A stretch of DNA of 64,000 nucleotides from Streptosporangiales bacterium. GTDB lineage: Bacteria > Actinomycetota > Actinomycetes > Streptosporangiales > WHSR01. The stretch covers positions 1 through 64,000 of the forward strand of contig WHSR01000014.1 of assembly GCA_009379995.1 (NCBI GenBank), given 5' to 3'. Positions 58,154-64,000 of the stretch are shown here, one piece after another; position 1 is the first letter of the stretch, and every line of letters begins with the position of its first letter. The notes under the pieces are model-generated. The model saw nothing but the letters and a program-made list of their open reading frames with translations, ran no database searches and was not told where the DNA came from. The position numbers and the translations under genes were made by a program.

Positions 58154-59764
58154 TCAGTGGTAGACGGCGCTCTCCGCACCCGCGCCGGTCAGCGAACGGA
58201 CCTCGATCTCGGCGTACTTCGCCGTGTTCCGCTCCCTGCTGAGCACGGTGCCGAGCCAGCCGCACAGGAAACCGAGCGGGATGGAGATGAGCCCGGGGTT
58301 CTCCAGCGGGAACCAGGAGAAGTCGGCGTTGGGGAAGAGTGCCTCCTCCGACCCGGACACCACCGGCGAGAAGGCGACCAGAAAGACTGCCGACGCGATG
58401 CCGCCGTAGATCGCCGAGACGGCGCCGGCGGTGTTGAACCGCTTCCAGAACAGGCTGTAGAGGATCGCGGGCAGGTTGCCGGACGCAGCGACAGCGAAGG
58501 CCAGCGCGACGAGGAACGCCACGTTGAGCCGCTGCGCCAGGATGCCGAGGACGATCGCGATCGCGCCGATGACCAGGGCGGCGTAGCGCGCGACCTTGAG
58601 CTCCTCGCCCTCGGTGAGCCTGCCCTTCTTGAACACGTGTCCGTACAGGTCGTGGGCGAACGACGAGGAGGACGCGAGCGTCAGCCCGGCCACCACGGCG
58701 AGGATCGTGGCAAACGCGACCGCCGCGATGATCGCCAGCAGCACCGTGCCGCCGACATCGCCGAACATGAGCTGCCCGATTCTTTCGGCGAGCTGCGGGG
58801 CCGCGGTGTTGCCCGCCTCGTTCTGCGCGGCGATCTCCTCGCTGCCGACCAGTGCGGCCGCGCCGAAGCCGAGCACCAGGGTGAGCAGGTAGAACGTCCC
58901 GATGATGCCGATGCCCCAGATGACCGACTTCCGGGCGTCCCGTGCCGTCGGGACTGTGTAGAAGCGGATGAGGATGTGCGGAAGCCCCGCGGTGCCGAGC
59001 ACCAGGGCAAGGCCCAGGCTGATGAGGTCGAGCCTGCCGACGAGACCCTCCTCCGGGGTCGCGTAGGCCTGGCCCGGCCGCAGGAAGGCCTCACCCACGC
59101 CGCTCTGTGCGGCGGCGTCGCCGAGCAGCGAGGAGATGTTGAACCCGTACCTGCCGAGCACCAGGAGCGTGACCAGGATCGCGCCGCTCATGAGCAGCAC
59201 GGCCTTGACGATCTGCACCCACGTGGTGCCCTTCATGCCACCGACCGTCACGTAGGTGATCATCAGCGCACCAACCAGGGCGATCGTGGCCGCCTTCGCT
59301 GCTTCACTGGTCACGCCGAGGAGCAGAGCGACCAGCGCGCCCGCGCCGACCATCTGCGCGATCAGGTAGAAGATCGACACAGTGATCGTCGAGACGCCGG
59401 CGGCGGTACGGACCGGGCGCGGGCTCATCCGGAACGCCAGCACGTCGGCCATGGTGAACCGGCCCGAGTTCCGTAGGAGCTCGGCGACCAGCAGCAACGC
59501 CACCAGCCAGGCGACGAGGAAGCCGATGGAGTACAGGAAGCCGTCGTACCCGTTGAGGGCGATGAGCCCGGCGATGCCGAGGAACGACGCGGCCGACATG
59601 TAGTCGCCGCCGATCGCGAGGCCGTTCTGCGCCCCGGAGAAGGAGCGCCCGCCCGCGTAGAAGTCGGTGGCGTCCTTGGTGTGCCGGCTAGCCCATACGG
59701 TGATGGCGAGGGTGGCGGCGACGAAGAGCAGGAAGAGGGTGATCGAGAGGGCCTGCTGGCTCAT
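58154..59764 (-). CDS. Sodium:solute symporter, ActP-like (acetate/monocarboxylate)
   Basis: This 536-residue SSS-family transporter with about 13 helices begins MSQQALSITLFLLFVAATLA. Family signatures are GGDYMSAASFLGIAGLIALN, TVGGMKGTTWVQIVKAVLLM and LGTAGLPHILIRFYTVPTAR. With a DUF485 partner it matches the YjcH-ActP layout of acetate uptake. The ATG 59764 overlaps the DUF485 stop (ATGA), so the longer frame to 59971 is rejected. Confidence 0.92.
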   Translation of the reverse strand: MSQQALSITLFLLFVAATLAITVWASRHTKDATDFYAGGRSFSGAQNGLAIGGDYMSAASFLGIAGLIALNGYDGFLYSIGFLVAWLVALLLVAELLRNSGRFTMADVLAFRMSPRPVRTAAGVSTITVSIFYLIAQMVGAGALVALLLGVTSEAAKAATIALVGALMITYVTVGGMKGTTWVQIVKAVLLMSGAILVTLLVLGRYGFNISSLLGDAAAQSGVGEAFLRPGQAYATPEEGLVGRLDLISLGLALVLGTAGLPHILIRFYTVPTARDARKSVIWGIGIIGTFYLLTLVLGFGAAALVGSEEIAAQNEAGNTAAPQLAERIGQLMFGDVGGTVLLAIIAAVAFATILAVVAGLTLASSSSFAHDLYGHVFKKGRLTEGEELKVARYAALVIGAIAIVLGILAQRLNVAFLVALAFAVAASGNLPAILYSLFWKRFNTAGAVSAIYGGIASAVFLVAFSPVVSGSEEALFPNADFSWFPLENPGLISIPLGFLCGWLGTVLSRERNTAKYAEIEVRSLTGAGAESAVYH

Positions 59765-60090
59765 CGGGCGTCCTCCTCCACCTTGTCGCGCACCCTGTCG
59801 GCCAGCCCGTCCAGCCTGCTGCTTGCGTGCCGGGCGTACAGCCATGCGATCAGGAACGTCGAGACGAACTGCAGCAAGCCGAACACGAGCGCCACGTTGA
59901 TGTGCCCGAACAGCGTGGCGCCCATGAAACCGCGCGCCCAGCCGGACAGCACGACGTAGAGCAGGTACCACGCCAGGAACACCACTGTCGCCGGGAAGGC
60001 GAAGGCGCGGAACCGCCTGCGCAACTCCTGGAAGTCAGTACTGCCCTGGACGCGTTCGTAGACGGTTCCTTCGTCGCGGGTACTCGTCAC
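59761..60090 (-). CDS. DUF485 membrane protein (YjcH-like)
   Basis: This 109-residue protein has two membrane helices (about 33-52 and 63-85) and the DUF485 consensus (RRRFRAFAFPATVVFLAWYL; GHINVALVFGLLQFVSTF). It is a usual partner of ActP-like symporters, with which it overlaps by four bases. Upstream is a 163-base gap holding two direct repeats for a LytTR regulator. Confidence 0.9.
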   Translation of the reverse strand: MTSTRDEGTVYERVQGSTDFQELRRRFRAFAFPATVVFLAWYLLYVVLSGWARGFMGATLFGHINVALVFGLLQFVSTFLIAWLYARHASSRLDGLADRVRDKVEEDAR

Positions 60091-60135
60091 CGATCCTCCT
60101 GACGACGTGATTGGTGGTCACGCACAGTCACGGAC

Positions 60136-60141
60136 AGGCTA
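60136..60141 (-). promoter_or_regulatory. Possible -10 of the DUF485-symporter promoter
   Basis: TAGCCT on the minus strand lies about 46 bases before the DUF485 start. No clear -35 is visible, as expected for an activator-dependent promoter. Support is weak. Confidence 0.3.
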
Positions 60142-60213
60142 GGGGCCGTAGCCCTCGGCGACGAGGCGCAGATCGGCGAGCCGTCCGCCTGGGGCGATCA
60201 CCGTGGGCGGCGT

Positions 60214-60246
60214 GCGACGAACGGTCGGTCCAGCGCGACGAACGGT
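60214..60246 (-). promoter_or_regulatory. Two LytTR-type direct repeats upstream of the DUF485-symporter genes
   Basis: On the minus strand ACCGTTCGTCGC occurs twice, with the 9-base cores at 60217-60225 and 60238-60246. Each core, ACCGTTCGT, fits the LytTR consensus (T/A)(A/C)CGTTN(A/G)(T/G). Cores are 21 bases apart (12-base spacer), i.e. on the same DNA face. It lies 8 bases behind the stop of the other symporter and 124 bases before the DUF485 start. Confidence 0.75.
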
Positions 60247-60253
60247 GGGGCGA

Positions 60254-61753
60254 TCAGGACCGCCGGGGACGCCAGTCGCCGCGATCGACGTCCAGCGCCT
60301 CGGGTGCGTGCAGCCGCACCATCGTGCGCGCCACGCCGGCCGGGATCCGGCCAGGGGTCAACAACGACGTCGCCACCATCACCCCGAACGCGATCGGCAC
60401 CGTCCACGCCGCGGGCTCGGCGAGCAGGGCGCCCTGCCAACCGTCCAGCGGGCCGCTCGCGATCGTCCATATCACCGCGCCGCAGGCCAGGCCGCCGCCG
60501 ACCAGCAGCCCGGCGAGCGCTCCGGTCTCGGTCAGCCGCCGCCACCAGACGCCGAGCACGAGAAGCGGGCAGAACGAGGATGCCGCCACCGCGAAGGCCA
60601 GCCCGACGACGTCGGCGACCGGAAGCGAGCGGGCGGCGGCCGCCAACGCCAGCGGCACCACGACGGCGATCAGCGTCGCCAGGCGGAACGACCGGACTCC
60701 CCCGCCCAGGATGTCCTGGGCGAGCACGCCGGCGACCGAAACGGTGAGTCCGGACGAGGTGGAAAGAAACGCGGCGAACGCTCCGGCCGTCACCAACGCG
60801 CCGAGCAGATCGCCGGCCATCCCGCCGATCACCCGGCCGGGCAGCGTCAGCACAACCGCGTCGCCCCCACCCGTCGCCGCCAGATCCGGCGCGTAGATCC
60901 GGCCGAGGGCCCCGTACAGCGCCGGCAGCAGGTAGAACATGCCGAGCAGCGACAGCACGGCCAAGGTGGTACGGCGGGCGGCGCGGCCGTCGGGGTTGGT
61001 GTAGAAGCGCACGAGCACGTGCGGCAGGCCCATGGTGCCCAGAAAGGTCGCCAGGATCAGCGAGTACGTCGCGTACACCGGGTGATCGCGGCTCCCCTCC
61101 AGGGGCAGCAGCCAGTCCTGGTCGGCGATGCCGGGCGCGCCGTCCGCTCGCCACGCGAGCAGCAGGAACACCACGGGAACGGCCAGGGCGGTGAGCTTGA
61201 GCCAGTACTGGAAGGCCTGCACGAAGGTGATGCTGCGCATGCCGCCCGACAGCACGTTCACGGTCACCACCGAGGCGACGAGCAGGCCGCCCATCCACAC
61301 CGGCACGTCGACCAGCGTGCGCAGCACCAGCCCGGCGCTCTGGAACTGCGGCATGAGATAGAGCCAGCCGATGAGGATGACGAGCACGCTCGCGGTGCGC
61401 CGTACCCTCATCGACTCCAGCCGCGCCTCGGCGAAGTCGGGCAGCGTGTACGCGCCGGAGCGGCGCAGCGGGGCGGAGACGAGGACGAGCAGGATGAGGT
61501 AGCCACCGGCCCAGCCGACCGGAAGCCAGAGCATGTCGGCCCCGTGCACCAGGACGAGGCCGGCGATGCCGAGGAAGGAGGCCGCCGACAGGTACTCGCC
61601 GCCGATCGCCGAGGCGTTCCACAGCGGGGAGACGGTCCGCGAGGCCACGTAGAAGTCCGAGGTGGTACGGGACAGCCGCAGCCCGAACGCCCCGATGAAC
61701 ACGGTCGCGGCGACTACCAGCAGCACGGCGGCGAGCTCGTACGAGCTGCTCAC
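60254..61753 (-). CDS. Sodium:solute symporter, second copy
   Basis: This 499-residue SSS transporter begins with GTG (VSSSYELAAVLLVVAATVF). It shares the pattern GGEYLSAASFLGIAGLVLVH, LSGGMRSITFVQAFQYWLKL and LGTMGLPHVLVRFYTNPDGR with the 58-kb copy, but is shorter. It lies downstream of lytR and a small membrane protein, and overlaps the latter's stop by four bases. It probably takes up a monocarboxylate. Confidence 0.9.
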   Translation of the reverse strand: MSSSYELAAVLLVVAATVFIGAFGLRLSRTTSDFYVASRTVSPLWNASAIGGEYLSAASFLGIAGLVLVHGADMLWLPVGWAGGYLILLVLVSAPLRRSGAYTLPDFAEARLESMRVRRTASVLVILIGWLYLMPQFQSAGLVLRTLVDVPVWMGGLLVASVVTVNVLSGGMRSITFVQAFQYWLKLTALAVPVVFLLLAWRADGAPGIADQDWLLPLEGSRDHPVYATYSLILATFLGTMGLPHVLVRFYTNPDGRAARRTTLAVLSLLGMFYLLPALYGALGRIYAPDLAATGGGDAVVLTLPGRVIGGMAGDLLGALVTAGAFAAFLSTSSGLTVSVAGVLAQDILGGGVRSFRLATLIAVVVPLALAAAARSLPVADVVGLAFAVAASSFCPLLVLGVWWRRLTETGALAGLLVGGGLACGAVIWTIASGPLDGWQGALLAEPAAWTVPIAFGVMVATSLLTPGRIPAGVARTMVRLHAPEALDVDRGDWRPRRS

Positions 61754-62115
61754 CGGCGGTCCACGAGCTCGGCGAAGTCCTTCTCGGTGCGCTCGGCCTG
61801 ACGCACGTACCACCAGGCGCAGCCCACGAACATCGGGTAGATGAGTCCGGCGAGGATCACCCAGGGCAGCGGCACGCCGAGCAGCCGCAGCTCCCGCAGC
61901 CCGGGTATCAGCAGGAACAACGCGGGCAGGCCACCGACCACGCAGGCCAGGACGGTGCACACGAAGAGCGAGAGCCGCAGCTGGGACCGCACCAGCGAGC
62001 GCATGTAGACCTCGCCCAGCCGGGTCTGTTCGTCGATCTCGCGGGTGGCCGGATAGCGCGGCCGGGTCGCGGCGCGGGTGCGCGGGCTGGTGACGACGAC
62101 GCGGCGCTCGCTCAT
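61750..62115 (-). CDS. Small membrane protein, symporter partner
   Basis: This 121-residue protein has a basic N-terminal third and two membrane helices (about 48-70 and 81-101), then a charged tail (WYVRQAERTEKDFAELVDRR). Its layout and place directly before a symporter parallel those of the DUF485 protein. It overlaps lytR by four bases. Confidence 0.82.
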   Translation of the reverse strand: MSERRVVVTSPRTRAATRPRYPATREIDEQTRLGEVYMRSLVRSQLRLSLFVCTVLACVVGGLPALFLLIPGLRELRLLGVPLPWVILAGLIYPMFVGCAWWYVRQAERTEKDFAELVDRR

Positions 62116-62867
62116 GGCTCCGGCCCGCGGCGGGAGCTACGGACGAGAAGGTCGCGCAGCTCACGGGTGTGCCGGCGGCTGACCGGGAGCTCGGTGCCGC
62201 CGACCGACACCGTGCAGCGGCCGGAGTCCAGGCGCAGCTGCTCGATGTGCTGGACGGCGACCAGGTAGCCGCGGTGCACCCGGACGAACCCGGCGCCGCG
62301 CCAGCGCTCCTCCAGCGTCGCCAGCGGTACGCGGACGAGATGACTGCCCGAGGCCGTGTGCAGCCGTGCGTAGTCGCCCTGCGCCTCGACGTAGTGGATC
62401 TCGGCCACCTGGACGAACCTGGTCACTCCCCCGGACAGCTCGACGGGAACCGGCTCCGGCTCGGTCCGGCCAACGGGCCCCGATGCGACGCCCTCGGCGA
62501 CCCTGCGCACCGCCTCGGCGAGCCGCTCCGACCGCACCGGCTTGAGCAGGTAGTCCTCCGCCTTGACCTCGAAGGCGTCGACAGCGTGCTCGTCGTACGC
62601 GGTCACGTACACGATCTTGGGAGGGGTGGCGAACTGCGCCAACAGCCGTCCCAGCACGATCCCGTCGAGCCCCGGCATCCGGATGTCCAGGAACATCGCG
62701 TCGACCGGCCGCCCCTCGGCCAGCGCGCGGTCGAGGCGGCGCAGCGCCGCGGCGCCGTCCCGGGCCGTGTCCACCTCGTCGATGCGGGGATCGGCGCGCA
62801 GCAGGTACGCGAGGTCGTCGAGTGCGGGCAGCTCGTCGTCGACCGCGAGGACGCGAAGGCCGGCCAT
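62112..62867 (-). CDS. LytTR-family response regulator
   Basis: This 251-residue regulator has a receiver domain (Asp10, Asp11, phospho-acceptor Asp61 in AMFLDIRMPG, Lys in YLLKPVRSERL) and a LytTR DNA-binding domain from about 145 (IHYVEAQGDYARLHT; FVRVHRGYLV). It acts with the upstream sensor. The two repeats at 60214-60246 are likely targets. It is similar in type to BtsR/YpdB regulators of carboxylate uptake. Confidence 0.93.
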   Translation of the reverse strand: MAGLRVLAVDDELPALDDLAYLLRADPRIDEVDTARDGAAALRRLDRALAEGRPVDAMFLDIRMPGLDGIVLGRLLAQFATPPKIVYVTAYDEHAVDAFEVKAEDYLLKPVRSERLAEAVRRVAEGVASGPVGRTEPEPVPVELSGGVTRFVQVAEIHYVEAQGDYARLHTASGSHLVRVPLATLEERWRGAGFVRVHRGYLVAVQHIEQLRLDSGRCTVSVGGTELPVSRRHTRELRDLLVRSSRRGPEP

Positions 62868-62936: not shown

Positions 62937-64000
62937 CTACGCCGCGGAGACGCCGGGACGGTACTTGGGCACCCGGAGGCTCACCTTCATCCCCGACTCC
63001 ACCGCCGTCTCGACCACGAGGCCGTACGCGTCGCCGTAGACCTGGCGCAGCCGCTCGTCCACGTTGGCCAGGCCGACGCCCATCCCCTGCGGCCCCTCCC
63101 CGGAGAGGACGCGCCGCATCCCCTCCGGATCCATGCCTACCCCGTCGTCCTCGACGCTGATCAGGCACTCCGCGCCGACGTCCTCGGCCACGATGGTGAT
63201 CCGCCCCACGCCCGACTTGCCCTCCAGCCCGTGCCGCACGGCGTTCTCCACCAGCGGCTGCAGGCACAGGAACGGCAGGGCCACCGGCAGCACCTCGGGC
63301 GCGATCCGCAGCGTCACCTGCAGCCGGTCGCCGCCGAAGCGGGCGCGTTCGATCAACAGGTAGCGGTCGATGCCGCGCAACTCCTCGGCGAGCGTGGTGA
63401 AGTCCGCGTTGCGGCGGAAGGAGTAGCGGGTGAAGTCGGCAAACTCCAGCAGCAGCTCGCGGGCCCGCTCCGGGTCGGTGCGGACGAACGAGGCGATGGT
63501 CGTCAGGGAGTTGTAGATGAAGTGCGGGGAGATCTGCGCACGAAGCGCCCGTACCTCGGCCTCCATCAGCATGCTGCGGGACCGGTCGAGCTCGGCGAGC
63601 TCAAGCTGGGCGTCCACCCAGCGGCCGACCTCCTCGGCCGCTCGCACCAGACCGGCGGACGCCTGCGTGCCGTACGCGACGAGGGTGCCGACGACCCGGT
63701 CGTCGGTGGTGAGCGGAACCACGACCGCGTAGCGCACCGGGCAGTCCAGGTCCTCGCAGGCCACCGCGTCCGGACCGAGCACCTGGGTACGGCCACCGGT
63801 CAGGGTGTCCTTCGCGTGCGCCAGGGCTGCCCCGGCGTGGCGCTCACCCGCACCCTCCCAGGCGAGCAGTCTCTCCGCGTCGGTGATCGCCACTGCCGCC
63901 GAGCCGAGCAGCGCCCACAGGTGTCGCGCGGACTTCTCCGCCCCGTGCGCGGTCAGCCCGGACCGTAGCGGGGGCGCGGCGAGCGACGCAGTGTGCAGGG
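62937..64000 (-). CDS. LytS-type sensor histidine kinase (5' end outside window)
   Basis: This is the C-terminal 354 residues of a sensor kinase. A GAF-like domain (ITDAERLLAWEGAGERHAG; YAVVVPLTTDDRVVGTLVAY) comes first. The LytS/YehU-type histidine motif follows (ISPHFIYNSLTTIASFVRTD), then the ATP-binding region (VEDDGVGMDPEGM). Upstream codons to 64000 remain open, so the N-terminus is missing here. It would phosphorylate the LytTR regulator 69 bases downstream. Confidence 0.92.
   Translation of the reverse strand, partial: LHTASLAAPPLRSGLTAHGAEKSARHLWALLGSAAVAITDAERLLAWEGAGERHAGAALAHAKDTLTGGRTQVLGPDAVACEDLDCPVRYAVVVPLTTDDRVVGTLVAYGTQASAGLVRAAEEVGRWVDAQLELAELDRSRSMLMEAEVRALRAQISPHFIYNSLTTIASFVRTDPERARELLLEFADFTRYSFRRNADFTTLAEELRGIDRYLLIERARFGGDRLQVTLRIAPEVLPVALPFLCLQPLVENAVRHGLEGKSGVGRITIVAEDVGAECLISVEDDGVGMDPEGMRRVLSGEGPQGMGVGLANVDERLRQVYGDAYGLVVETAVESGMKVSLRVPKYRPGVSAA

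Follow-up and report, generated by a model that had tools for sequence, protein, structure and literature searches.

The window analysed here, a stretch of 64,000 nucleotides from a Streptosporangiales genome, carries a short direct repeat between two symporter genes. All genes of the locus lie on the minus strand, in the order sensor histidine kinase, LytTR response regulator, small membrane protein, SSS-family symporter, repeats, DUF485 gene and the gene of a further SSS-family symporter, MctC. Thermomonospora is a member of Streptosporangiales, and the order of the window genome includes this genus; the placement in Micromonosporaceae suggested by an earlier note on this DNA is thus not right. 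No Rfam family was found in the window at E≤1.

Of the kinase gene (62937–63998, minus strand), the window contains the final 353 codons; the full frame runs from contig position 64124 to 62937. The protein matches Pfam His_kinase and HATPase_c and was assigned to the PF06580 catalytic class with 81.2 bits, and its H201 motif ISPHF is invariant. A weak GAF-like region precedes the His-kinase domain, with one hydrophobic or transmembrane segment ahead of it. No 5TM-5TMR_LYT receptor domain was found in the 353 kinase residues scanned, and a single hydrophobic segment lies in the other 42. The name LytS given to this protein earlier is therefore appropriate for the kinase class and not for a multi-pass membrane receptor of the LytS/BtsS type. 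A C-x4-C pair (as CEDLDC) lies in the GAF-like region (about columns 160–175 of alignment A2, about 63750–63780 in the window); it is conserved in most homologues and in part of a paralogous group, is missing in a few, and is a possible redox or metal site of the sensor.

The response regulator (62112–62867, minus strand) carries a receiver domain (Response_reg, PF00072, 70.6 bits) and a LytTR domain (PF04397, 75 bits), both scoring over the cut-off. The phospho-acceptor Asp D61 and Lys K109 of the receiver are invariant in 22 aligned homologues. It contains the one LytTR domain found in the genome, the assembly of which is 94% complete, and it lies 1.9 kb upstream of the repeats in transcription order. 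A comparison by sequence with solved LytTR structures gave no match to AgrA. Downstream follow a small membrane protein (61750–62115, minus strand), a DUF4212-like partner of the symporter next to it by a PF13937 match of 22.2 bits, which is under the curated cut-off of 30, and this second symporter itself (60254–61753, minus strand; Pfam SSF, 152 bits), the nearest named family of which is TIGR03648 with a score under its cut-off. Both genes follow the regulator in all loci with a close regulator ortholog in which the contig continues. Beyond the repeats, the DUF485 small membrane protein (59761–60090, minus strand; PF04341, 107.9 bits) is the first gene of the presumed target operon, followed by the symporter gene at 58154–59764 (minus strand), which matched the MctC equivalog NF058657 with 838.4 bits against a cut-off of 670. 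It is thus a predicted MctC-type carrier of monocarboxylates, with acetate, propionate and pyruvate as substrates by family annotation.

The repeat unit GCGACGAACGGT is present at 60214–60225 and again at 60235–60246, beginning 8 bp past the point where the upstream symporter gene ends and leaving 124 bp to the DUF485 start codon. On the minus strand, which also encodes the flanking genes, the same stretch reads ACCGTTCGTCGC-N9-ACCGTTCGTCGC. Nikolskaya and Galperin reportedly defined a 9-bp LytTR consensus, WMMGTTNRK, in 2002, and a LytTR operator is expected to consist of two such direct repeats separated by a spacer of 10–13 bp. The minus-strand pair matches WMMGTTNRK-N12-WMMGTTNRK with zero mismatches, and no other stretch of the window does so. 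Both the two identical 12-mers 21 bp apart and the fit of their 9-bp cores and 12-bp spacer to the LytTR consensus, as proposed from first inspection, were thereby confirmed. A search of the 5.8-Mb genome for ACCGTTCGT-N12-ACCGTTCGT revealed no second site with less than two mismatches.

Each repeat is short, which is the only point in favour of the pair being a chance repeat or a functionless relic. Identical 12-mers at 21 bp occur nowhere else in the 64-kb window and are expected 0.02 times per simulated window, the consensus pair was found in 0 of 100 shuffles, and a chance origin was rejected on these grounds. Conservation of the array to which the pair belongs extends across the order and to at least four other families, and these comparative data already contradict a relic. 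The probability of this explanation is hence close to nil.

Conservation was assessed in 40 loci with close regulator orthologs and 20 with more distant homologues. In 33 aligned loci, the window included, 152–165 bp separate the pair from the downstream DUF485 start, which was set by protein alignment. When the 76-bp array was modelled from sequence alone (R1), the window genome gave one match (55.1 bits), located before DUF485-mctC, the next best being 19.6 bits. In a search of 121 genomes of the order, with the orthologous regulator called at a best E≤1e-100 and the array at E≤1e-6, an array was found in 57 of 57 genomes with the orthologous regulator versus 1 of 64 without it, and in this lone genome the array belongs to its own paralogous system. 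The 57 are not independent events, since the genomes are relatives of one another and 30 of the co-occurring loci went into building the model.

Relocated operons provide a control whose outcome cannot be put down to relatedness. DUF485-mctC lies about 10–28 kb from the regulator in six genomes (G082, G086, G092, G049, G076 and G090) and on another contig in two more (G012 and G093), and the array accompanies DUF485-mctC in every one of these cases. No site was detected upstream of DUF485-mctC in genomes lacking a close regulator ortholog (L182, L185, L191–L193, L195–L198 and L200–L206). In four loci with about 50%-identical regulators adjoining DUF485-mctC (L169, L170, L184 and L190), no recognisable site was found before DUF485, and the DNA specificity may have shifted in these genera.

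Absence of the repeats from orthologous loci had been named as a finding that would speak against the proposed link; they are present there, and the co-occurrence together with the relocated cases ties them to the cognate LytTR regulator and the DUF485-symporter operon. By this co-occurrence, the repeats can be regarded as a candidate conserved LytTR operator. The proposal that the system activates both symporters was not supported, as the single array of the genome precedes DUF485-mctC and none was found before the operon of kinase, regulator and symporter; a second operator before the kinase operon was also looked for in the orthologous group and not found.

Column conservation first suggested that further repeats follow the pair. 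The strong distal half-sites 1 (60235–60246) and 2 (60214–60225), both ACCGTTCGTCGC on the minus strand, are separated by 21 bp and conserved in the 33 aligned loci. Two weak proximal half-sites were located by PSSM scans, half-site 3 (CACGGTGATCGC, 60194–60205, minus strand) at register +41 in the window and +42/43 in relatives, and half-site 4 (ACGGCTCGCCGA, 60173–60184, minus strand) at +62 in the window and +63/64 in relatives. A half-site profile was built from copies 1 and 2, leaving out the locus being scored, and run over every offset; of 208 others, exactly +63 (z 4.5) and +42 (z 3.7) scored highest. In the window, half-site 4 scores above the 99th percentile of background and half-site 3 only near the 95th.

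The register had been noticed by eye before the profile scan, so that checks in a paralogous system and in other families carry more weight. Many genomes of the order, the one under study not among them, contain a paralogous kinase-regulator pair with an array after the regulator or the symporter gene, and 30 such loci show offsets of 0, 21, 43 and 64. When the profile from the DUF485-mctC group was applied to this system, the next best offsets were +64 and +43; in other families they were +63 and +43, or +42 alone. The pair seen at first reading is thus real, and the conserved unit appears to be an array of four half-sites and not the pair alone. The modular make-up of the site, two strong distal and two weak proximal half-sites in a 21-bp register, is the new finding here. 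LytTR operators with three repeats are known, which makes the four-site array a variant and not a new kind.

Promoter position follows the same register. A putative −10 box of the DUF485-mctC promoter, TAGCCT, is placed at 60136–60141 (minus strand) by the TAnnnT consensus; like all −10 boxes discussed here, it is a consensus call and a candidate. In the window it is separated from the start of half-site 4 by 43 bp, one helical turn less than the 53–54 bp of most relatives. Among 76 loci with such a candidate, its distance from half-site 1 is 115–118 bp in 66, 104–107 bp, again one helical turn less, in six including the window, and 95–96 bp in four. The last four lack the fourth half-site (mean score −15 versus about +6), although three come from a single genus and the other has a weak third half-site as well. 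Because these loci are without the fourth half-site, the −10 box would appear to keep a fixed distance of 53–54 bp, or one turn less, from the last half-site, and loss of one half-site would move it by 21 bp. Such fixed spacing is the geometry required if an activator is to touch the polymerase from the array's proximal end.

It might be argued that only the two strong half-sites matter and that the proximal repeats are conserved for another reason, as the site of another regulator or as a promoter element. The weak half-sites score far under the strong ones with the half-site profile, and half-site 3 of the window is marginal, as this explanation would have it. It is nevertheless unlikely, since the 21-bp register recurs in three sets of loci and loss of the fourth site coincides with a −10 box shifted by exactly 21 bp.

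Taken as a four-half-site LytTR operator, the array has in the repeats its high-affinity distal pair, which very probably serves to switch on DUF485-mctC. This reading draws on the sequence, its conservation, its register, the fixed promoter geometry and the co-occurrence with the regulator; from these, we infer binding and its dependence on phosphorylation, cooperativity, the ligand, and that the effect is activation and not repression. The kinase would sense a signal, probably acetate or a related monocarboxylate, and the phosphorylated LytTR regulator would bind the strong distal pair first. As suggested by the fixed promoter geometry, this pair might nucleate the complex and the weak proximal pair might be filled cooperatively. 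The regulator bound to the array could then contact RNA polymerase at the DUF485-mctC promoter, and monocarboxylate uptake would be switched on.

The same operator and regulator could also act in the opposite sense, the regulator repressing DUF485-mctC and the signal relieving repression. A LytTR repressor, CoxC, is known, and the three direct repeats that it binds overlap with the −35 box (PMC11347149). In the present array, any −35 box would lie well downstream of the end of the last half-site (43–54 bp from the start of this half-site to the −10 box), the position is that given for LytTR activators in the same paper (PMC11347149), and the helical phase to the −10 box is conserved, so that repression by the regulator is considered very unlikely. 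A Crp/GlxR-like palindrome, GTGA-N7-TCAC, is located at 60107–60121 (minus strand); all 32 orthologous upstream regions have its counterpart GTGA-N6-TCAC, 26–40 nt ahead of the start codon, the window having one extra base. The palindrome sits downstream of the −10 box in all relatives and for this reason would be expected to repress, as a second input besides activation by the LytTR regulator.

Regarding the signal, an array precedes DUF485-mctC also in families f6, f19, f21 and f28, and in f6, f21 and f28 the operon bearing it continues with acs. Acetyl-CoA synthetase ending the same operon in other families favours acetate. Acetate or a close monocarboxylate would be the most economical signal, and pyruvate or lactate is a possible alternative. 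Of the earlier proposal of acetate or pyruvate uptake, carboxylate uptake is retained on account of the MctC equivalog and of acs in the operons of other families, without the part concerning two symporters. Further LytTR arrays were observed before acs (L167 3823; L233 6004, from Streptomyces), phosphoketolase (L168 3879), a second mctC (L164 4610), MFS carriers of the lactate/oxalate type (L097 3053, L232 5946) and one of the metabolite-H+ type (L235 6275).

The paralogous branch has a different downstream region. At its loci (L238–L256 and L099–L111; for example L240 3035–3370, plus strand), the −10 box lies at 115–117 or 107 bp, and no clear reading frame was found between it and a convergent nfo gene. 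The roughly 200 nt after this −10 box fold into hairpins with runs of 5–7 G in the loops. Of two alignments, the first showed compensatory changes at 13 of 43 pairs and the second at 11 of 30, the L240 RNA folds 5.9 s.d. better than shuffles, and several loci have a U-run terminator. This structured RNA is a possible small RNA, and a search against Rfam gave no family above threshold. Scr3920 RNA was considered as a relative and rejected: it shares one G6-loop hairpin at a chance-level score, and none of 20 of its loci has a LytTR array upstream. Since Scr3920 is almost restricted to family f20, this family was equated with Streptomyces.

The G-rich loops are complementary to the C-rich loops of 6C RNA, and one true 6C RNA lies elsewhere in each of eight of eight genomes tested, G000 included. 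Pairing of the two RNAs is, on this complementarity, a hypothesis only. The wider proposal, a class-wide actinomycete acetate network of modular 21-bp arrays in which the Streptosporangiales paralog drives a G-loop RNA able to titrate 6C RNA, is speculative and rather improbable as a whole. If true, a two-component signal could titrate 6C RNA via a structured small RNA.

Among characterised systems, BtsS/BtsR-btsT and YpdA/YpdB-yhjX of E. coli use two direct repeats with an 11–13 bp spacer (PMC5552118; PMC4847170). They share with the present locus a LytTR response regulator, direct repeats and control, here predicted, of a carboxylate transporter, and among NCBIfam families the window regulator matches BtsR best, with 139.6 bits against an equivalog cut-off of 246. 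The half-site is ACCGTTCRTCGC here and not GGCATTTCAT as in BtsSR/YpdAB, the array has four half-sites instead of two, the sensor type differs, and the transporter belongs to the SSS family instead of CstA or MFS. Because the regulator scores under the BtsR cut-off and half-site, sensor and transporter differ, the system resembles BtsSR and YpdAB and is a non-member.

Tandem sites of the AgrA type likewise share WMMGTTNRK and the 12-bp spacer, whereas the present array differs in its target genes, its extended 12-bp half-site and its second proximal pair. The operators of RcoM1 and CoxC, LytTR proteins of CO regulation, contain three LytTR direct repeats (PMC11347149) and thus also more than two evenly spaced ones, but differ in half-site and in their one-component sensors; the present array has two strong and two weak sites, with the promoter position tied to the last. 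In actinomycetes, a review of Streptomyces coelicolor lists SCO1220, an orphan regulator of the LytTR type, but gives no gene name for it, and a literature search, with subscription literature largely outside it, found no paper tying LytTR to acetate or monocarboxylate uptake.

Closest in target genes is CrbS/CrbR of Pseudomonas and Vibrio, a two-component control of acs, actP and a DUF485 protein (PMC5715377). The same gene set would be under two-component control in both cases, yet CrbR is LuxR-type and recognises an imperfect inverted repeat, in contrast to a LytTR regulator with a direct-repeat array, and CrbS has a fused SLC5 symporter domain where the present operon has a separate symporter gene. 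By analogy to a split CrbS, the second symporter could serve as a co-sensor instead of transporting a substrate. With a defined operator, a candidate regulon (mctC, acs, phosphoketolase and MFS carboxylate carriers) and a promoter geometry, regulator, target and signal become directly testable, and the system might be the LytTR-based equivalent of the CrbS/R acetate switch, in which unrelated parts serve the same genes.
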